A stretch of 64,000 bases of DNA, taken from positions 558,001 to 622,000 of the forward strand of contig NZ_AP024202.1 in the NCBI RefSeq assembly GCF_021654855.1. The letters run 5' to 3'. Source of the stretch: Thiomicrorhabdus immobilis (GTDB lineage Bacteria > Pseudomonadota > Gammaproteobacteria > Thiomicrospirales > Thiomicrospiraceae). This document shows, piece by piece, positions 49,833 through 59,250 of this stretch. The notes under the pieces were generated by a model that saw nothing but the letters and a program-made list of their open reading frames with translations, did no database searches and had not been told where the DNA came from. The position numbers were made by a program, and so were the translations under genes. Positions within the stretch are counted from its first letter, which is position 1. Each line of letters starts with the position of its first letter.

Positions 49833-50717
49833 ATGAAAGGCATTATTTTAGCTGGCGGCTCAGGCACACGTTTATATCCAATCACCAAAGGGGTCTCTAA
49901 ACAGCTAGTACCAATTTATGACAAGCCAATGGTGTACTATCCGCTTTCTGTTTTGATGTTGGCTGGAATTACTGAAGTATTGATTATTACCACCCCAGAA
50001 GATCAAACCAGTTTTCAACGTCTGTTAGGCGATGGTTCAGAAATCGGTATGCGTTTTGAATATATCGTACAGCCGTCACCAGACGGTTTGGCTCAAGCCT
50101 TTATTCTAGGCGATGAGTTTTTAGGGAATGACGATGCCTGTTTGGTGTTAGGTGACAATATCTATTACGGTCACGACCTAACCTCTACACTTGCCAATGC
50201 GGTACAAAACGCCAAACAAGAAAATAAAGCCACGGTCTTTGGTTATCACGTTACTGATCCAGAGCGTTATGGTGTAGCTGAATTTGATGACAATGGTAAT
50301 GTAATCTCATTAGAAGAAAAACCAGAAATACCAAAATCCAACTATGCCGTAACGGGTCTGTATTTCTATCCAAATGACGTCATTCAAAAAGCTAAAGAGG
50401 TAAAACCCTCGCACCGTGGTGAATTAGAAATCACCACCGTTAACCAAATGTACCTAGAAGAAGGTCGTCTAAAACTAGAAACCATGGGACGAGGTTACGC
50501 CTGGTTAGACACAGGAACACATGAGAGCCTATTAGAAGCTTCGGCTTTTATTGAAACCATTGAAAAACGCCAAGGCCTGAAAGTCGCGTGTATTGAAGAG
50601 ATTGCCTTTGAGATGGGCTACATCAGCAAAGAGCAGCTTATCGAGCTGGCACAACCGCTTAGCAAAAACCAATACGGTCAATACCTACTAAAACGTGCAG
50701 AAGAAGGAAGAGTATAA
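49833..50717 (+). CDS. rmlA: Glucose-1-phosphate thymidylyltransferase RmlA
   Basis: 294 residues. First step of dTDP-sugar synthesis (dTTP + glucose-1-P). [79 protein letters not shown]. Together with rmlC, rmlD and rmlB it gives a full dTDP-L-rhamnose pathway, though the genes are separated by repeats. AAGAAGGG lies before the ATG. Confidence 0.97.
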
Positions 50718-50718
50718 A

Positions 50719-50927
50719 TAGATTGCTTCACTCCGTTCGCAATGACAAACCTTAAACAGTCATTGCGAGGGCTTTAGCCCATGGCAATCTAGAGATGTGT
50801 GGCATGAGTGGATTGCTTCACTGCGTTCGCAATGACAAACACCCACACTGTCATTGCGAGGGCTTTTGCCCGTGGCAATCTAGGGATGTGTGGCATGAGT
50901 GGATTGCTTCACTCCGTTCGCAATGAC
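50719..50927. repeat. GTCATTGCGAG palindromic element array, left of GIY-YIG gene
   Basis: A right half-unit at 50719-50745 and two full units, 50758-50835 and 50849-50927. Each unit has outer arms GTCATTGCGA... and ...TCGCAATGAC and two inner arms GGCAATC / GATTGCTTC around a short centre (ATGTGTGGCATGAGT type). Units are separated by 12-13 bases. Starts one base after the rmlA stop codon. Confidence 0.95.
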
Positions 50928-50944
50928 AGGTGGATCTCAAAAAC

Positions 50945-51232
50945 ATGAAGCAAGGTTATATTTACATAATGACCAATAAAAAGAATGGCACTCTTTATGT
51001 AGGTGTTACCAGCAATCTTGTGCAAAGAATTTATCAGCATAAAAACCACCTAGTTGATGGCTTTACAAAGCGGTATAGTTTAGATCAATTTGTTTATTAT
51101 GAACAATATGATGATATCGTTACTGCCATTGAACGAGAGAAGCAGCTAAAAGCTGGAAGTAGAAAAAAGAAAATAGCCCTAATTGAAGCTACAAATCCTA
51201 ATTGGCAAGATTTATATTCGGCAATAGTATGA
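50945..51232 (+). CDS. Single-domain GIY-YIG nuclease (UPF0213-like), inside the repeat array
   Basis: 95 residues from ATG 50945. GIY-YIG core: YIYIMTNKKNGTLYVGVTSN, catalytic Arg in LVQRIYQHK, and Glu in TAIEREKQLKAGSRKKKIAL. The reaction would be metal-dependent DNA strand cleavage; stand-alone members are widespread with little known role. The gene starts 17 bases after one palindromic unit (ends 50927) and stops 4 bases before the next (starts 51237), so it is packaged with the repeats and may be linked to their spread. Confidence 0.88.
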   Translation: MKQGYIYIMTNKKNGTLYVGVTSNLVQRIYQHKNHLVDGFTKRYSLDQFVYYEQYDDIVTAIEREKQLKAGSRKKKIALIEATNPNWQDLYSAIV

Positions 51233-51236
51233 CTCC

Positions 51237-51730
51237 GTCATTGCGAGGAGAGTAGCGACGCGGCAATCTAGGGATGTGAGGTTCGGATGGATTGCTTCAC
51301 CGCGTTCGCAATGACAAAACCCAAACCGTCATTGCGAGGGCTTTTGCCCGTGGCAATCTAGGGATGTGAGGTTCGAATGGATTGCTTCACTCCGTTCGCA
51401 ATGACAAAACCCAAACCGTCATTGCGAGGGCTTTAGCCCGCGGCAATCCAGAATGGCGAAGTAAGGTATGGGTTGTAATAGATTGCTTCACTGCGTTCGC
51501 AATGACAAACACCCACACTGTCATTGCGAGGGCTTTTGCCCGTGGCAATCTAGGGATGTGTGGTACGAATGGATTGCTTCACTCCGTTCGCAATGACAAA
51601 CACCCACACTGTCATTGCGAGGGCTTTTGCCCGTGGCAATCCAGAATGGCGAAGTAAGGTATGGGTTGTAATAGATTGCTTCACTGCGTTCGCAATGACA
51701 AACCTTAAAAAGTCACCGCGTTCGCAATAA
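51237..51730. repeat. GTCATTGCGAG palindromic element array, right of GIY-YIG gene
   Basis: Five full units: 51237-51315, 51328-51405, 51418-51506, 51520-51597, 51611-51699, then a decayed end at 51712-51730. Two length classes appear: about 78 bases (centre GGGATGTGAGGTTCG or similar) and 89 bases (centre GAATGGCGAAGTAAGG). The last three alternate long, short, long. Small open frames across this array on both strands consist only of repeat sequence and are not genes. Confidence 0.95.
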
Positions 51731-51766
51731 TAAATATAAAACAAACACAAAGTATTAAGGTAAAAA

Positions 51767-52351
51767 ATGGAGTTTATTAAACAAACCATCGAAGACGTTA
51801 TTCTCATCAAACCCAAAGTATTTGGTGATGAACGTGGTTACTTTGTAGAAACCTTTCGTCAAGACAAGTTTGAAGAAGCCGTAGGCCATCAGGTTAACTT
51901 TATTCAAGACAACGAATCCAAGTCCACTGGAGGTGTGTTAAGAGGATTACACTTTCAATTACCACCTTACGCTCAAAGTAAACTGGTCAGAGTCATAGAA
52001 GGTAAAGTGTTAGATGTTGCGGTGGATATACGTCAGGGCAGTCCAACCTTCGGTAACGTCGTAACCGCAGAGTTAAGTAGCGACAATAAACATCAACTTT
52101 TTATCCCAAGAGGGTTTGCCCACGGTTTTGTGGTGTTAAGTGAAACAGCGATATTTGCCTATAAAGTCGATAACTACTATTCCCCTGAGTGCGATAGAGG
52201 CTTAGCGTTTAATGACCCGCTGCTAAACATAGACTGGCAAATACCCGCAGAAGAACTCAAACTATCCGACAAAGACCAAAAACAACCAGGCCTGTTAGAA
52301 ATTAATGACGAATGTTCAATCTTTAATGTTGAATTAAACCTCTATGAATAA
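51767..52351 (+). CDS. rmlC: dTDP-4-dehydrorhamnose 3,5-epimerase RmlC
   Basis: 194 residues, cupin fold. Epimerises dTDP-4-keto-6-deoxyglucose at C3 and C5. VFGDERGYFVETFRQDKF, GGVLRGLHFQLPPYAQSKLV (catalytic His), VLDVAVDIRQGSPTFG, FIPRGFAHGFVVLSE, YYSPECDRGLAFNDPLLNID. The variant palindrome at 52285 is read as QPGLL. Separated from rmlA by the repeat array. Confidence 0.97.
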   Translation: MEFIKQTIEDVILIKPKVFGDERGYFVETFRQDKFEEAVGHQVNFIQDNESKSTGGVLRGLHFQLPPYAQSKLVRVIEGKVLDVAVDIRQGSPTFGNVVTAELSSDNKHQLFIPRGFAHGFVVLSETAIFAYKVDNYYSPECDRGLAFNDPLLNIDWQIPAEELKLSDKDQKQPGLLEINDECSIFNVELNLYE

Positions 52352-52357
52352 TTTTAA

Positions 52358-52973
52358 ATGAGTGTTTATATCCAAGAATTGATTAATCAAGGAGAAACCG
52401 ATGTCCTTGAGTTTAAGGCCTCTTTTCAAAAAGAGGTTATTGAGTCCGCCGTTGCTTTCGCTAATGCGAGGGGGAGGCAAGATTGTCGTTGGTGTAGCAG
52501 ATGATAAACAAATTCTTGGACTGCAGTTAGGTGTAGAAGCACTGTTAAAAGGCGACTACTCCTCAAAAGTACGCAATAGAGGGGTGACTAACATGTTTAA
52601 AGAAGCGGGCATTATTGAAAAGTACGGCTCTGGCATTAAAAGAATTCAGCAGGCCTGCTTAGCACATGATGTGATTGAACCCAGGTTCGAAGAATTTCAA
52701 CATGGTTTTAGAGTGACTCTTTATAAGCAAAGAATCGTAGATGATCTGAGTGGCGGTGTAAGTGAGGGTGTAAGTGAGGGTGTAAGTGAGGGTGTAAGCT
52801 TACTGTTAAATTTAATTACAAAGCACCCTGGTTTACGTTCTACCCAAATGCAAAAAGAGCTTTCAGTTCCCGTTAAAACACTTGAGCGCTGGCTAAAGTA
52901 ATTAAAAGAACAAGATAAAATAGAGTTTAAAGGAGCTCCCAAAACTGGCGGTTATTATGCAAAATCAAATTAA
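52358..52973 (+). pseudogene. Broken AlbA_2/Schlafen-type DNA-binding protein gene
   Basis: Starts ATG 52358 and reads MSVYIQELINQGETDVLEFK as in AlbA_2 (divergent AAA_4) transcriptional regulator-like proteins. A frameshift in the G run near 52470 moves the coding to another frame (GGKIVVGVADDKQILGLQLG). The middle of the gene (about 200-250 codons) is deleted, after which KYGSGIKRIQQACLAHDVIE continues. An in-frame TAA at 52900-52902 interrupts the winged-helix end, whose last codons (EFKGAPKTGGYY) run into the rmlD start at 52957. Three independent lesions show it is dead. Confidence 0.88.
52755..52799 (+). repeat. 12-bp tandem repeat GGTGTAAGTGAG
   Basis: Three full copies and a partial one inside the broken AlbA_2-type gene, encoding G-V-S-E repeated. 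Confidence 0.95.
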
Positions 52974-53919
52974 AATACTCGTAACAGGAAAAAATGGTCA
53001 ACTAGGCCAAAGCTTAAATCAACTAACTGCTAACTACCCACTGTTCACTATGCACTTCGTCGGTAGAGATGAACTCGATTTATCTAGTGCAGAGTCAATT
53101 CAAGCCTATTTTGCGAATAATGAATACGATGTCATTATCAATTGCGCCGCTTATACAGCAGTAGATAAAGCCGAGTCTGAACCCGGTCTAGCAGATCAGA
53201 TTAATCACTTAGCCGTAAAACAGCTAGCTGAAATAGCAAAACAACAAGATGCAATGCTCATTCATATCAGCACTGACTATGTTTTTAACGGACAAAACTT
53301 CAAACCCTATAGTGAATCAGATGCAACTGATCCACAAAGCGTTTACGGTTTAACCAAGCTTAAAGGTGAGCAAGCCATTCAAGCCATCAACCCTAAAGGC
53401 TGTATTATCCGCACCAGTTGGGTGTATTCAGAATTTGGTAATAACTTTGTCAAAACCATGTTGAGATTAGGTAAAGAAAAAGAGCAGCTAGGAATCATCT
53501 TTGACCAAGTGGGTACACCAACCTATGCTGGAGATCTAGCAGAAGCTATTTTGCAAATAATAGACCGCACTGTCATTGCGAGGAGCGCAAGCGACGTGGC
53601 AATCTATGAAGCCAGTAGTGGGCTTAAGATGGATCGCCACACTACGCTCGCGATGACAGAAGGTGATGCACCCACTAAAAATGAAGTCTTTCATTTTTCT
53701 AACGAAGGAGTTTGCTCTTGGTATGATTTTGCCAAAACAATATTTGAATACGCTAAAATACCCTGCGTTGTTTTACCAATAGAGTCTAGGTGTTATCCAA
53801 CGCCTGCAACAAGGCCACATTACAGCTTAATGAATAAAGCAAAAATTAAACAAGCCTATAATTTAGAAATACCATACTGGAAAGACAGTTTAAAAAAATG
53901 TTTAGTGAATATTTCTTAA
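52957..53919 (+). CDS. rmlD: dTDP-4-dehydrorhamnose reductase RmlD with an in-frame palindromic-element insert
   Basis: 320 residues, short-chain dehydrogenase fold. Last step of dTDP-L-rhamnose synthesis. NAD(P)-binding GKNGQLGQSLNQL, NCAAYTAVDKAE, STDYVFNG, YGLTKLKGEQA (Tyr and Lys), and RTSWVYSEFGNNFVKTMLR. Between LAEAILQII and VFHFSNEGVCSWYDFA about 35-40 extra residues (DRTVIARSASDVAIYEASSG onward) are coded by one copy of the GTCATTGCGAG element at 53570-53659, exactly 90 bases. The catalytic residues lie outside. Whether the enzyme is active is not known, but the frame is intact. Confidence 0.95.
   Translation: MQNQIKILVTGKNGQLGQSLNQLTANYPLFTMHFVGRDELDLSSAESIQAYFANNEYDVIINCAAYTAVDKAESEPGLADQINHLAVKQLAEIAKQQDAMLIHISTDYVFNGQNFKPYSESDATDPQSVYGLTKLKGEQAIQAINPKGCIIRTSWVYSEFGNNFVKTMLRLGKEKEQLGIIFDQVGTPTYAGDLAEAILQIIDRTVIARSASDVAIYEASSGLKMDRHTTLAMTEGDAPTKNEVFHFSNEGVCSWYDFAKTIFEYAKIPCVVLPIESRCYPTPATRPHYSLMNKAKIKQAYNLEIPYWKDSLKKCLVNIS
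53570..53659. repeat. GTCATTGCGAG palindromic element inserted in rmlD
   Basis: 90 bases with outer arms CTGTCATTGCGAG and CTCGCGATGACAG. Same family as the arrays. Its length is a multiple of three, so the host reading frame continues through 30 codons with no stop. Confidence 0.95.
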
Positions 53920-53947
53920 ATTTGAATGATTATGTTGGGAGATAAAT

Positions 53948-54247
53948 ATGCGGTTGTCACCTGAGCAGATACAAGCAATCAGATCCAGTTTTATAAACGT
54001 GTTTTGCAAGGGGGAGGTTATACTTTTTGGTAGCCGTGTAGACGACAATAAAAAAGGGGGTGATATTGACCTCTACGTCAGCGCTTCTGAACCTATTAAT
54101 GACTTGTTTAAGCTTAAATTGAAGTTTTTAGTTGATTTGAAATCTAAGATTGGTGAGCAAAAAATCGATTTGGTGTTAGAGCCTTTTGCTTCAAATGAAT
54201 TGAAGCAAGAAGTACAAAGAACGGGTATCAAGATATGTCAGATTTAG
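53948..54247 (+). CDS. MNT-type nucleotidyltransferase antitoxin (MntA-like)
   Basis: 99 residues. Minimal nucleotidyltransferase: ILFGSRVDDNKKGGDIDLYV (GS-x10-DxD motif). In the MntA/HepT (type VII) toxin-antitoxin systems the MNT protein adds nucleotides to the HepT toxin and silences it. Overlaps the next gene by 13 bases, as usual for the pair. Lies between rmlD and a repeat array. Confidence 0.87.
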   Translation: MRLSPEQIQAIRSSFINVFCKGEVILFGSRVDDNKKGGDIDLYVSASEPINDLFKLKLKFLVDLKSKIGEQKIDLVLEPFASNELKQEVQRTGIKICQI

Positions 54248-54711
54248 CTGAAATTAAAATAAAAAAGTTAATCGATGAGTGTGATAAACATCAATATCGA
54301 ATAAATTCGGCTTATTCTAAAATTGCATACAAACTGCCATTAACAGAACAGGTTTATAAACAACTAACCGATGAAGATATTGAGCATATTGACCAATTTA
54401 TATTTCGTTTTTCAAAACTACAGGATGCAATTGGTCAGAGACTGTTTAAAGCGATGTTGACTTTTTTAGAAGAAGACGTCGAGACTCTACCGTTTATAGA
54501 TGTTCTAAATAAACTGGAAAAGCTCAGGCTTATTGAATCGACCGAACAATGGAAGCAGTTAAGAGAAATTAGAAACGCCATTGCGCACGAATATGATGAT
54601 TCGCCAGAGCTAATGTCACAAGTGCTAAACACTGTGTTTGATGCAAGAATAGACTTATTTGCTATTTACGAAAATTTGAAGAACACTTATCAGGATAGGC
54701 AGTCTGAATAA
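54235..54711 (+). CDS. HepT-like RNase toxin
   Basis: 158 residues, all-helical HEPN fold. The RNase motif R-x4-H-x-Y is RNAIAHEY (Arg113, His118, Tyr120). Probably cleaves RNA unless modified by the upstream MNT partner. The pair is likely mobile and sits in the gap of the rml cluster together with the repeats. Confidence 0.85.
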   Translation: MSDLAEIKIKKLIDECDKHQYRINSAYSKIAYKLPLTEQVYKQLTDEDIEHIDQFIFRFSKLQDAIGQRLFKAMLTFLEEDVETLPFIDVLNKLEKLRLIESTEQWKQLREIRNAIAHEYDDSPELMSQVLNTVFDARIDLFAIYENLKNTYQDRQSE

Positions 54712-54732
54712 GTTCAAGATAGAAAAGCAACA

Positions 54733-55107
54733 CAGATATTGCGAGGAGCAAAGCGACGCGGCAATCTAGGAATATGAGGCATGAATGGATTGCTTCACTT
54801 CGTTCGCAATGACAAACCTTACACCGTCATTGCGAGGAGCTAAGCGACGTGGCAATCCATAGCGGCAAAGTACGGTAAGGTTTGTAAATAGATTGCTTCA
54901 CAACGTTCGCAATGACAAAACCTACACAGTCATTGCGAGGGCTTTAGCCAGCGGCAATCTAGGAATATGAGGCATGAATGGATTGCTTCACTGCGTTCGC
55001 AATGACACCAATACCTGTCATTGCGAGTAACGAAGTTACGCGGCAATCTAAAAAGGCAAAGTACAGTAAGGGTTGTAAATAGATTGCTTCACTATGTTCG
55101 CAATGAC
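54733..55107. repeat. Second GTCATTGCGAG palindromic element array
   Basis: Four units: 54733-54813, 54826-54916, 54929-55006, 55017-55107. They alternate strictly between a short class (about 78-81 bases, centre AATATGAGGCATGAAT) and a long class (91 bases, centre GGCAAAGTACGGTAAGG). No gene in this 452-base gap between hepT and rmlB. Confidence 0.95.
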
Positions 55108-55212
55108 TATCGACCAAAGCCTAAAGACAATTAACAAAAACAACACAGTCAAGAAATTAAAAATTGAGAATTAATAAAGTGTCATTAAAAACTAAAAATT
55201 CATCATTAAAAA
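55105..55212. repeat. AT-rich repetitive leader and start region of rmlB
   Basis: GACTATCGACCAAAGCCTAA (GATAGTC-family word) is followed by several copies of (C)ATTAAAAATT/AATTAAAAATTGAGAATT at 55154-55212. The rmlB start codon and its first codons lie inside this sequence, so the extra N-terminal residues derive from the repeat. Confidence 0.6.
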
Positions 55213-56408
55213 TTATAGTAACCGGTGGAGCAGGCTTTATTGGTTCTGCGGTTATACGTGAACTCATCAATAATTCAAATCACCATGTAGTGAATGTCGA
55301 TAAACTCACTTACGCAGGTAACCTAGAATCTCTATCGACCATCGATCAAGATTCACGTTATGCGTTCGAACAAGTTGATATCTGCGATGCAACTGAAGTA
55401 AAAAGAGTTTTTGAACAACACCAACCAGATATTGTGATGCACTTGGCCGCCGAGTCTCATGTTGACCGTTCGATTGATGGTCCTGGTGAGTTTATTCAAA
55501 CCAATATCGTGGGTACTTATACTTTACTAGACCAAGCCAGAGCCTATTGGAATCAACTTGAAGGTGACAAAAAAGCCAACTTCCGTTTTCATCATATCTC
55601 AACAGACGAAGTCTACGGCGATCTTCCTCACCCTGATGATTTTACTAGCAGTCATTGCGAGGAAACGAAGAACTCGACGCCTGCAAGGGTAAGTCGAGAA
55701 CAAAGCGACGCGGCAATCTCCCAAAGTAGAGCGACTAACGACCAAGCATTGCCGCTCTTCACTGAAACAACGGCCTACGCTCCAAGCTCCCCTTATTCAG
55801 CGAGTAAAGCGGGAAGTGACCATTTAGTAAGAGCCTGGAACAGAACCTTCGGTTTACCAACGCTGGTGACTAACTGCTCAAATAACTACGGTCCTTATCA
55901 CTTTCCAGAAAAGCTGATTCCGTTGGTTATTCTTAATGCTTTAGAAGGCAAGCCACTACCTATTTACGGAAAAGGCAATCAAATCCGTGACTGGCTATAC
56001 GTAGAAGACCATGCCAGAGCCCTGATTAAAGTCGCTACAGAAGGCAAAATCGGTGAAACCTACAATATAGGCGGCCACAACGAAAAACAAAACATAGAAG
56101 TAGTAAAAACCATATGTAACATTCTAGATGAATTAATGCCTCCTGAAAAACGCGGTATTAAGAGCCAAGATGGTCAGTTGCTTACTACACACCACTCACT
56201 ACTCACTTACGTGAGTGACCGCCCCGGCCACGACATGCGCTACGCTATAGATGCCACCAAAATCCAAAAAGAACTGGGTTGGACACCTCAAGAAACATTT
56301 GAGAGTGGGATTAAAAAAACCGTACAGTGGTATTTAAATAACCAGGCCTGGTGTAAACATGTGCAGGATGGAAGTTATCAAAGAGAAAGGTTAGGGTTTT
56401 CAAAATAA
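55164..56408 (+). CDS. rmlB: dTDP-glucose 4,6-dehydratase RmlB with repeat-derived inserts
   Basis: Up to 414 residues (usual about 355). Makes dTDP-4-keto-6-deoxyglucose, used for rhamnose and for amino sugars. [79 protein letters not shown] and [14 protein letters not shown] are all present. Extra residues: an N-terminal tail (start TTG 55164 or GTG 55179), about 30 residues after DLPHPDD coded by a GTCATTGCGAG-type element (55651 on), and about 11 residues before [10 protein letters not shown]. The palindrome at 56341 is read NQAWC. Confidence 0.94.
55651..55720. repeat. GTCATTGCGAG-type element fragment inserted in rmlB
   Basis: Begins GTCATTGCGAGG, has its first hairpin tip enlarged by an internal inverted repeat (ACTCGAC ... 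GTCGAG), and returns to consensus at AAAGCGACGCGGCAATC. The right half is missing or unrecognisable. Read in frame without a stop. Confidence 0.85.
56341..56352. repeat. ACCAGGCCTGGT palindrome, in rmlB
   Basis: Exact 12-mer; codons read N-Q-A-W. The last copy in the window; none follow in 56.4-64 kb. Confidence 0.95.
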
Positions 56409-56409
56409 G

Positions 56410-59250
56410 ATGAAGAAGAAAAGAGAAGTAATTGGTGTCATAGATAGTTACGATGGTTCTTTGCTTAGAGGTTGGGCACATGAAGTTGATTCAAATGAAC
56501 CTGTACTATTGCAACTTTTGATTAATAATGAAGTGGTTGCCGAATTTAAAGCTGATAAATATAGAGATGATTTACTTTTACATGGCATTAATAAAGGAAA
56601 AGCATCTTTTAGTATTCCGCTGGATATCAGAAGGCTGTTATTAAAGCTTGAAGATGAAGGTAAAGATGAGATTAAACTAGATGTTAAGCCAAAAGATGAT
56701 AGTTGTAAATCAAGAATAACAAATAGTTTGAATTCGATAAAAGCTCCAGATATTCATTACAATATAGATAGTTGTGAATATGAGGGTATAAATGGTTGGA
56801 TAGCGGATTTTAATAACTATTCTTTAACGATACTCCTTGATATATGGATTAATGATCAGAAAATTAAATCAATTCCAGCAAACCATAGTCGAGAAGATCT
56901 AATCACGAGAGGATTAACTAATACGGATAAAGGCTTCAATATTAATATTGGCCAATTGGCAGAAGGTGCTGAGTTTGTTGATGTGAAAATAACGTGTGGT
57001 TATCTAGATGAAACGATACTACTACCTTCTACAAGCTTATCCTCTTTCCAATCAAAAATTGAGGCTTTTACAGATTTACAAGTTTTACTCCGAGGTTCTC
57101 AAGATTTAGCGAACAATCCTAAATATGATTTTTTACTCAAGTCTTTAATACCAGCTGTAATTGATCGTTATCGCAAAGATAGAAAAGTTGAACAGAAAAG
57201 TATCAAATGCCTTGATTCAAGTGATGAAAAGAAACCTGTAACAATCGTTATTCCTGTCTATAAAGGTATCGCCGAGACTAAAAACTGTATTTACTCTGTA
57301 GTAAATAGTAAAAACAGATCAGATTACCGATTGATTGTAATTTCAGACTTTTCTCCAGAAGAAAAAATGTTGCCAGAATTACTGAATTTACAGAAAAAAT
57401 ATGACTTTGATTTACTCGCGAATGATCGAAATTTAGGTTTTGTCGCTACAGTTAATAAGGGGATGAAATACGCGGGTAATGCTGATGTTATTTTACTAAA
57501 TTCCGATACTGTTGTTCCAGATGGTTGGTTAGATGCTATACAGCAAGCAGCTTATTCATCACCAACTATTGGTACTGTAACGCCAATGTCAAATAACGCG
57601 ACAATTTGCAGCTTTCCAGGATTCTGTATAGATAATGATTTACCAACTGGATATAGTGTGGAGTCATTGGCTTATTTATGTAAGAAAAATCAAGAAGCTG
57701 AAATAGACCTGCCTACTGCACATGGTTATTGCATGTTTATCAAAAGACAGGTTCTTAATGAAGTTGGTTTGTTTGATGAGCAGAAGTGGGGTAAAGGTTA
57801 TGCCGAAGAAAATGACTTTTCTCTAAGAGCAAATAAGATTGGATGGCGTCACGTGATGACTAACAAAACATTCATTCATCATTTGGGTTCAGTTTCATTT
57901 GCCTCTGATGCGGAAGGTTTTATTGCAAAAAACTTGCAAAAACTGAATGGTTTATACCCTGATTATCCAAAGTTAGTTGAAAAATTTATAAGGAAAGATC
58001 CTGCAAGGCGCTTGAGAAATGAACTTGCTGTCAAAATATTAAAAGATGAATCTATGGCTTTTGACCCAAAAACATCTGCTAAAGGTAAATCGATTTTATT
58101 TGTATCACTGTCAATTGGCGGGGGAACTAAAAAAGCAACAGATGATTTGATAAAGCTTCTGAAAAAAGAAGGTCAAAATGTCTACTATCTTACTCCTCAA
58201 AAGCAAGGCTCGATATGGCGTTTATCAAGCACTAATTCGAATGTTTATGCGGACTATGATTCTGATATCGAAGTAAATGACCTTGTAAAAATACTTCAGG
58301 AATTAGATGTCTGGCATATTCATTATCATAATGTTCTTGGATTCAAAGATGGAATTTGGAGTTTACCCAACCTTCTTAAATGCGAATACGATATAACTGT
58401 TCATGATTATTATGCTGTTTGTCCGAGGGTAAATTTTGTTTCATTTAACGATGAGTATTGTGGTGAAAAAGGGTATGTTCAATGTCAAAATTGTTTAGCT
58501 GACCTTGGAGTGCATGACAGTTCGGTAATCTCTTTTACAGATTATGATGAAGACATTAATTTATGGCGACAACATTTTTATAAAAAATATAAATTAGCAA
58601 GAAAAGTATTTACACCTAGTCAGGACACTAAACAAAGGCTTCAAAGTTATTTTGATTTAGAAAATGTATTTCATAACTATCATCCAGAACCGGTAGATAG
58701 GGTGGTTTTAAGTAAATTTAGTAAAAGTAGTAATGAAAATATTAATCTAGGTTTTTTAGGGGCACTTGGGCCTCATAAAGGAGTAAATGTTATCAAACAA
58801 CTGGCGAGCAAGATATCTGAACAGAGGTTGCCAATTAATTTAAAAATTATTGGTTACACAAGCGATGATGATTTCTTCAAAAAATTTGATTTTATAACGC
58901 TCACTGGAAAATATGATAGTTCACAGCTTCAGGAATTAATCAAACGTGAACAAATTGATGCAGTTTTCTTAACAAGTATATGGCCTGAAACATATAGCTA
59001 TACTTTAAGTGAGGCAATATCGAATGGCAAGTATGTTGTCTCATTTGACATAGGGGCAATAAAAGAAAGGCTAGACTTTATGAATGTTAAGAGCAGACTG
59101 CTTTTTTCCGTAGATGAAAAACCTGAAACAATGTTGAAAATGATTATAGAATTTTTTGGTAAAAATGATGTTGAAGTGATTAAAAACGGCGTTGAGTATG
59201 ATTCAATTTTAAATGATTATTTTGCTCTGAGTCGAGGTCTGAAAGCATGA
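56410..59250 (+). CDS. Multidomain glycosyltransferase (GT2 plus GT4-like) with N-terminal modules
   Basis: 946 residues. Two N-terminal modules of about 100 residues each (GWAHEVDSNEPVLLQLLINN ... YRDDLL and GWIADFNNYSLTILLDIWIN ... SREDL) share a GWxxD...R-x-DL pattern seen beside glycosyltransferases. A GT2 domain follows (about 275-510; VTIVIPVYKGIAETKNCIYS, NDRNLGFVATVNKG, LNSDTVVPDGWLD). The last part (about 555-940; ILFVSLSIGGGTKKATDDLI, LGFLGALGPHKGVNVIKQL, WPETYSYTLSEAISNGKYVV) is GT4-like. The two catalytic domains may add two sugars. First gene of the AT-rich block; overlaps the next by 4 bases. Confidence 0.82.
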   Translation: MKKKREVIGVIDSYDGSLLRGWAHEVDSNEPVLLQLLINNEVVAEFKADKYRDDLLLHGINKGKASFSIPLDIRRLLLKLEDEGKDEIKLDVKPKDDSCKSRITNSLNSIKAPDIHYNIDSCEYEGINGWIADFNNYSLTILLDIWINDQKIKSIPANHSREDLITRGLTNTDKGFNINIGQLAEGAEFVDVKITCGYLDETILLPSTSLSSFQSKIEAFTDLQVLLRGSQDLANNPKYDFLLKSLIPAVIDRYRKDRKVEQKSIKCLDSSDEKKPVTIVIPVYKGIAETKNCIYSVVNSKNRSDYRLIVISDFSPEEKMLPELLNLQKKYDFDLLANDRNLGFVATVNKGMKYAGNADVILLNSDTVVPDGWLDAIQQAAYSSPTIGTVTPMSNNATICSFPGFCIDNDLPTGYSVESLAYLCKKNQEAEIDLPTAHGYCMFIKRQVLNEVGLFDEQKWGKGYAEENDFSLRANKIGWRHVMTNKTFIHHLGSVSFASDAEGFIAKNLQKLNGLYPDYPKLVEKFIRKDPARRLRNELAVKILKDESMAFDPKTSAKGKSILFVSLSIGGGTKKATDDLIKLLKKEGQNVYYLTPQKQGSIWRLSSTNSNVYADYDSDIEVNDLVKILQELDVWHIHYHNVLGFKDGIWSLPNLLKCEYDITVHDYYAVCPRVNFVSFNDEYCGEKGYVQCQNCLADLGVHDSSVISFTDYDEDINLWRQHFYKKYKLARKVFTPSQDTKQRLQSYFDLENVFHNYHPEPVDRVVLSKFSKSSNENINLGFLGALGPHKGVNVIKQLASKISEQRLPINLKIIGYTSDDDFFKKFDFITLTGKYDSSQLQELIKREQIDAVFLTSIWPETYSYTLSEAISNGKYVVSFDIGAIKERLDFMNVKSRLLFSVDEKPETMLKMIIEFFGKNDVEVIKNGVEYDSILNDYFALSRGLKA

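Follow-up and report, generated by a model that had tools for sequence, protein, structure and literature searches.

A REP-like palindrome translated in frame within rmlD of Thiomicrorhabdus immobilis, and a linked GIY-YIG nuclease gene as its candidate mobiliser

The window analysed here, 64,000 nucleotides of the Thiomicrorhabdus immobilis genome, holds a rhamnose gene cluster in which a DNA palindrome sits inside an enzyme gene and leaves its frame open (Table 1). How did a repeat come to be translated within rmlD, and what, if anything, moves it? A sequence-only reading had placed a 90-base unit with matching arms in this gene, and its coordinates prove exact: the element runs from CTGTCATTGCGAG to CTCGCGATGACAG, with arms that pair at 12 of 13 positions. 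Of 200 dinucleotide shuffles, 199 fold less well as single-stranded DNA than the 90-mer does (z -3.8). Two inverted units make up the element, TGTC-ATTGCGAGGAGCGCAAGCGACGTGGCAAT-C and, on the opposite strand, TGTC-ATCGCGAGCGTAGTGTGGCGAT-C; with their tags facing outward they form a head-to-head dimer. The left arm, TGTCATTGCGAGGAGCG, occurs four times in the window at up to three mismatches, where 0.09 copies are expected, and none of 100 shuffles reached four. Arrays of the same element, with + and - units alternating, fill the intergenic spaces among the rml genes. No Rfam family matched across 50600-56500, and the literature retrieved for the repeat sequence itself was unrelated.

Table 1. 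Genes and repeats of the rml region, in window coordinates
Feature	Position	Strand	Description
rmlA-type nucleotidyltransferase	49833..50717	+	PF00483
Repeat array between rmlA and nuclease gene	50719..50929		window copies
GIY-YIG nuclease, 'GSR' subgroup	50945..51232	+	95 aa, PF01541 E 1.5e-16; between two repeat arrays; proposed mobiliser
Repeat array between nuclease gene and rmlC	51236..51743		window copies
rmlC, dTDP-4-dehydrorhamnose 3,5-epimerase	51767..52351	+	PF00908 E 1.7e-71
rmlD, dTDP-4-dehydrorhamnose reductase	52957..53919	+	320 aa; TIGR01214 above cutoff, PF04321
Palindrome in rmlD	53570..53659	+	90-nt head-to-head dimer, CGTC-REP-like; from sequence, window copies, fold and absence in orthologues
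Repeat array between MNT/HEPN gene pair and rmlB	54735..55108		window copies
rmlB, dTDP-glucose 4,6-dehydratase	55164..56408	+	NF007490 above cutoff
Second in-frame copy, in rmlB	55651..55719	+	single REP, extended stem, 23 codons; DLPHPDE-LPLFTE loop

As the earlier reading had claimed, the element is translated in frame, as the 30 residues at about 205-234 of RmlD (TVIARSASDVAIYEASSGLKMDRHTTLAMT), and the open reading frame continues on both sides. The multiple-of-three length to which this was attributed is a property of the rmlD copy (90 nt) and also of the rmlB copy (69 nt). Aligning RmlD with its relatives, we did not find the segment in orthologues at 64-69% identity or in the RmlD of nine congeners, and no repeat-free orthologue with the same residues came to light. 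At the DNA level the segment matches the intergenic copies, and the class of repeats that it resembles is known to enter genes. These comparisons support the view that a repeat has turned into protein sequence, as in the Rickettsia palindromic elements.

The class in question is that of the CGTC-tagged REPs, which include RPE-4 and RPE-6 of R. conorii and dRS3 of Neisseria, occur in at least five phyla, mostly as head-to-head dimers, and in some cases lie within genes in frame (Di Nocera et al. 2013, PMC3733652). With these the window repeat has in common a (C/T)GTC tag, AT/AT first stem pairs, a short tail, head-to-head dimers and some in-frame copies. The tag is TGTC at both ends of the rmlD copy and CGTC, TGTC or AGTC in other window copies; the stem of the left unit opens as ATTGC..GCAAT, giving the complementary AT pair; and dimers predominate, in the rmlD copy as in the alternating arrays. 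The stems differ: that of the CGTC REPs is 8-9 bp long with a loop of 4-5 nt, whereas in the ATTGCG..GCAAT type of the window the outer stem spans 5 bp and encloses a long and variable interior, and shuffles fold as well as its single halves do. Since the outer stem measures only 5 bp, we call the window type REP-like and not a member of the CGTC REPs. The REPs that flank most other nuclease loci in our survey do have the CGTC stem. CGTC REPs were described without a dedicated transposase, and no tyrosine transposase was found flanked by them (PMC3733652); here, in contrast, a GIY-YIG nuclease gene is linked to the repeats.

The cluster contains other unusual sequence. Between rmlD and rmlB, at 53948-54711, lies a nucleotidyltransferase/HEPN-like gene pair of the MNT-HEPN toxin-antitoxin type (Pfam). 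An open frame at 52401-52901 carries a RecG C-terminal-like ATPase domain (PF13749), appears to be a truncated remnant, and includes 12-nt repeats encoding GVSE (52752-52799). The start of rmlB falls in an AT-rich repeat (ATTAAAAACTAAAAATTCATCATTAAAAATT, 55150-55215) and gives the protein an unusual N-terminal extension.

The 2.54-Mb genome has 12 copies of the GTCATTGCGAG core, and all of them fall at 608759-613661, a span of 4.9 kb around the nuclease gene. That every core copy falls within the rml region, and that related species such as G030 hold dozens of copies, would fit an import of the rml cluster, repeats included, from a repeat-rich relative in which the in-frame copy arose, with nothing moving here now. 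We regard such an import as plausible, at somewhat less than an even chance. It is compatible with mobilisation by the nuclease and does not exclude it; against it, in the nearest RmlD among congeners (G030, 76%) the REP is missing and another insert, of low complexity, is found at that place.

Three things go beyond the sequence-only reading: the rmlB copy, the repeated occupation of the same loops by different repeat families, and the nearby GIY-YIG gene. Probably the spread of the repeat hinges on this gene, which lies upstream in the cluster. Its product belongs to a set of 15 aligned sequences in which Y7, Y18, R28 and E65 are invariant. It shares the GIY-YIG catalytic domain, with its conserved Tyr, Arg and Glu, with GIY-YIG homing endonucleases and with UPF0213/YhbQ (1zg2). 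It differs from them in that its roughly 95 residues are too few to include a DNA-binding domain besides and in that the gene is not intronic. Members of the subfamily, at 42-79% identity, are distributed patchily among 95 related genomes. Another group of GIY-YIG proteins, about 33% identical, is commoner there and was used as a control; we take it to be of the YhbQ/UPF0213 kind, 1zg2 (UPF0213) being the only solved relative found.

Reading the flanks of the subfamily members, we found CGTC REPs beside nearly every one, with a REP family that differs in many genomes. To quantify this, we surveyed 398 Pseudomonadota genomes, 99 of which have the subfamily, and examined 60 loci, each from a different genome and at most 18 kb long. 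An initial hairpin detector did not pick up the ATTGCG type; the strict detector used here combines the published CGTC description with one explicit pattern for ATTGCG, so that this type is detected by sequence and not by stem. At 38 of 60 loci a REP lay no more than 200 bp from the nuclease gene, where segments drawn at random from the same contigs predict 1.75, and at 24 of 60 there were REPs on both flanks, against 0.05 expected. Their density was 2.8 per kb within 300 bp of the nuclease and 0.10 per kb at 1-9 kb, a 27-fold difference. Among other genes of at least 150 aa on the same contigs, 4 of 507 had REPs on both sides (Fisher 5e-22). A looser detector matched at 51 of 60 loci but had a 23% background in random segments, and for that reason the claims use the strict one. 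At 21 loci the strict detector registered no REP within 300 bp; by eye, nearly all of these have near-canonical REPs, for example with a GACC instead of a GATC close; these were left out of the statistics. The sole locus among the 21 with no REP visible beside the nuclease is L254. YhbQ-like paralogue loci yielded one REP match in 41 kb, and RmlD loci, as a further control, five in 897 kb.

The sampled loci come from Pseudomonadota, several of them MAG contigs, and one cyanobacterial plasmid. Named members with CGTC or near-CGTC REP flanks include those of Neisseria gonorrhoeae (dRS3-like), Novosphingobium aromaticivorans, Sinorhizobium meliloti (with a CCTC tag) and Aeromonas caviae; the member in the cyanobacterium Planktothrix agardhii is flanked by a less regular palindrome. 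At one locus (L108) a long ATTCAAC run adjoins the nuclease and its REPs, and a 1.6-kb stretch of G030 (C1:909569-911120) carries three nearly identical genes of this GIY-YIG subfamily.

REP type and nuclease type correspond. ATTGCG..GCAAT REPs flank 9 of 9 nucleases that carry K-x-G-(S/N)-R close to the C terminus, and 0 of 54 others. The held-out set drew on 369 additional Gammaproteobacteria and comprised 27 new loci; the ATTGCG type flanked 8 of 8 GSR nucleases with detected REPs and 0 of 17 others, a match that supports recognition without proving it, since it may stem from joint inheritance. The GSR groups are weakly resolved on the nuclease tree. REPs 1-9 kb away tend to be of the same type as those near the gene (59 of 77, against 21 expected, P 5e-4). 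Repeats of the ATTGCG type also occur in 13 of 78 genomes that lack the nuclease, which means that they can persist after its loss or spread by other means.

Might the nuclease be a passenger, with REPs gathering round a small mobile or dispensable gene, or ending or stabilising its transcript? Linkage alone is no proof of function, and REPs downstream of genes were already known (PMC3733652). Nevertheless, the linkage is two-sided and begins tens of bases from the open reading frame, and where both flanks could be scored the tags mostly point outward (14 of 24 with the strict detector, 24 of 38 with the looser one), unlike in the window, where the REPs nearest the nuclease gene have their tags inward. 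In addition, the nuclease motif predicts REP type in held-out genomes, and other mobile genes, such as Y1_Tnp, have no such flanks. We therefore consider a passenger role unlikely.

In two cases close relatives differ in whether they have the nuclease-REP unit. In some Sphingobium strains, plasmids carry the nuclease gene within an exact 31-bp inverted REP pair (CGTCACCCCGGGCTTGACCCGGGGTCCCGCT); at the same site two strains have one lone REP, and two others have neither REP nor nuclease. In Azospirillum lipoferum the nuclease gene is found between sufB and sufC, accompanied on either side by two REPs; the corresponding site in A. ramasamyi, A. oryzae and strain B510 is free of a nuclease gene. 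Because the intergenic flanks have diverged, the insertion boundaries and target duplications at these filled and empty sites cannot be fixed to the base.

The obvious precedent for a mobiliser is the RAYT, or IS200-type, tyrosine transposase thought to move GTAG REPs, beside which the GIY-YIG gene would be a bystander. The REP-RAYT/REPIN systems (PMC2817692, PMC3116915) resemble the present one in their inverted pairs, in a gene for a DNA-cutting enzyme (here a predicted one) bracketed by palindromes, and in non-autonomous copies elsewhere; they differ in using an HUH tyrosine transposase and a GTAG tag, where the window system has a hydrolytic GIY-YIG enzyme and a CGTC-like tag. CGTC and GTAG REPs do look alike, and Y1_Tnp genes, of the RAYT superfamily, are present in 56 of the 95 related genomes. 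Their presence, however, shows no association with the ATTGCG repeat (Fisher p 0.63), whereas that of the GIY-YIG subfamily does (p 7e-4; GSR subgroup 6 of 6, p 1e-4). Only 1 of 30 Y1_Tnp loci in these genomes had a CGTC REP nearby, the T. immobilis genome has just a broken Y1 fragment, and PMC3733652 reports no tyrosine transposase with CGTC REP flanks. Tested in this way, a RAYT is disfavoured as the mobiliser and appears very unlikely.

We return to the proteins in which the repeats came to rest. As rmlD is the single close RmlD match in its genome, the protein is probably in use with its insert. In an AlphaFold2 model (mean pLDDT 82) the RmlD fold is intact, and the insert, among the least certain parts (pLDDT 46-65), lies between a helix at 191-209 and a strand at 243-246; 279 of 320 residues of the model align with solved RmlD structures (VIA Z 32.5, 8ctr). 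REP-like DNA occupies this RmlD loop in three species of the genus (G000; G023, L139; G024, L142) and in a Helicobacteraceae MAG (L016) from another phylum. The inserts of G023 and G024 begin at the same codon and may reflect one common insertion. In RmlB, the DLPHPDE-LPLFTE loop carries ATTGCG-type REPs in G000, G011 and G023, the ATCCCGAC type in G025 and the ATTCCGGA type in G024. Judging from the protein, SHSELDPES, the loop of G018 probably contains a related REP, which would bring the count to six species. At least three REP families are represented. The loop is short and without a repeat in the ten other congeners examined. A single ancestral insertion at the RmlB loop is ruled out, as sister species hold different REP families there. 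The different families at one site, together with the many repeat-free sisters, point to recurrent insertion, or very strong tolerance, at both loops. The unit here is shorter than Rickettsia palindromic elements, which are put at about 150 bp (PMC10969869), and differs from them in that repeats of several families have repeatedly occupied the same two loops among sister species; shared with them are the in-frame entry of palindromes into unrelated protein genes and their retention as extra residues, here in rmlD and rmlB. That the 30 residues of RmlD are an ancestral or selected protein segment with a coincidental DNA palindrome, as the open frame and the intact predicted fold would allow, is scarcely credible given the orthologues that lack them, the intergenic copies that match the DNA and the sister species with different repeats at the site.

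Other repeats are found in the same proteins. The C-terminal part of rmlB has a second odd in-frame insert at 56160-56215, with DNA like CACTCACTACTCACT, and the G030 RmlD (L138) has an insert, LLTTHHALLT, that resembles it, at the place of the window's REP. These inserts appear to come from another class of repeat, one that uses the same loops. Further repeat-derived residues in the C-terminal RmlB loop are a long HHDETPLRYDETPLRHSGLDPESS stretch in G018 (L304) and NVIPSEVEGSS in G025 (L289), and the residues NIQHSTF, related to ATTCAAC units, are found in variable RmlD loops of L007, L018 and L019.

Collectively, we favour, as moderately probable, a model that makes the 90-nt unit a mobile but non-autonomous palindrome like the CGTC REPs, which the GIY-YIG subfamily would mobilise as RAYTs are thought to do for GTAG REPs. 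The window copies would belong with the GIY-YIG gene that lies between their arrays. The nuclease would recognise its own REP type and cut at or near the tagged hairpin, or at the cruciform of a head-to-head dimer; repair of the break would then copy or insert the REP, or a REP pair with the nuclease gene inside, elsewhere. In this way a palindrome would have entered the rhamnose gene cluster, by chance left the rmlD frame open and persisted because it sits in a tolerant loop, with RmlD, like RmlB, presumably still active. GIY-YIG enzymes cleave DNA by hydrolysis and have no strand-joining activity, so that the insertion step must rely on host repair, and this is the weakest link of the model. 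In the open-access literature we found no paper that pairs GIY-YIG with REPs, palindromic repeats or dRS3; an earlier report elsewhere is possible.

A broader proposal, which we consider as likely as not, is that CGTC REPs across many bacteria are the non-autonomous part of a GIY-YIG-driven system in which each nuclease subgroup would recognise its own REP through a motif (GSR as opposed to W-x-R-x-W), and which would repeatedly add in-frame segments to enzyme loops. A specific candidate enzyme for CGTC REPs would make their origin, spread and effects open to experiment. The rml case shows repeats of this kind giving rise, time and again, to new protein segments at particular loops, and comparison of sister species would allow neutral repeat-derived segments to be told from useful ones.
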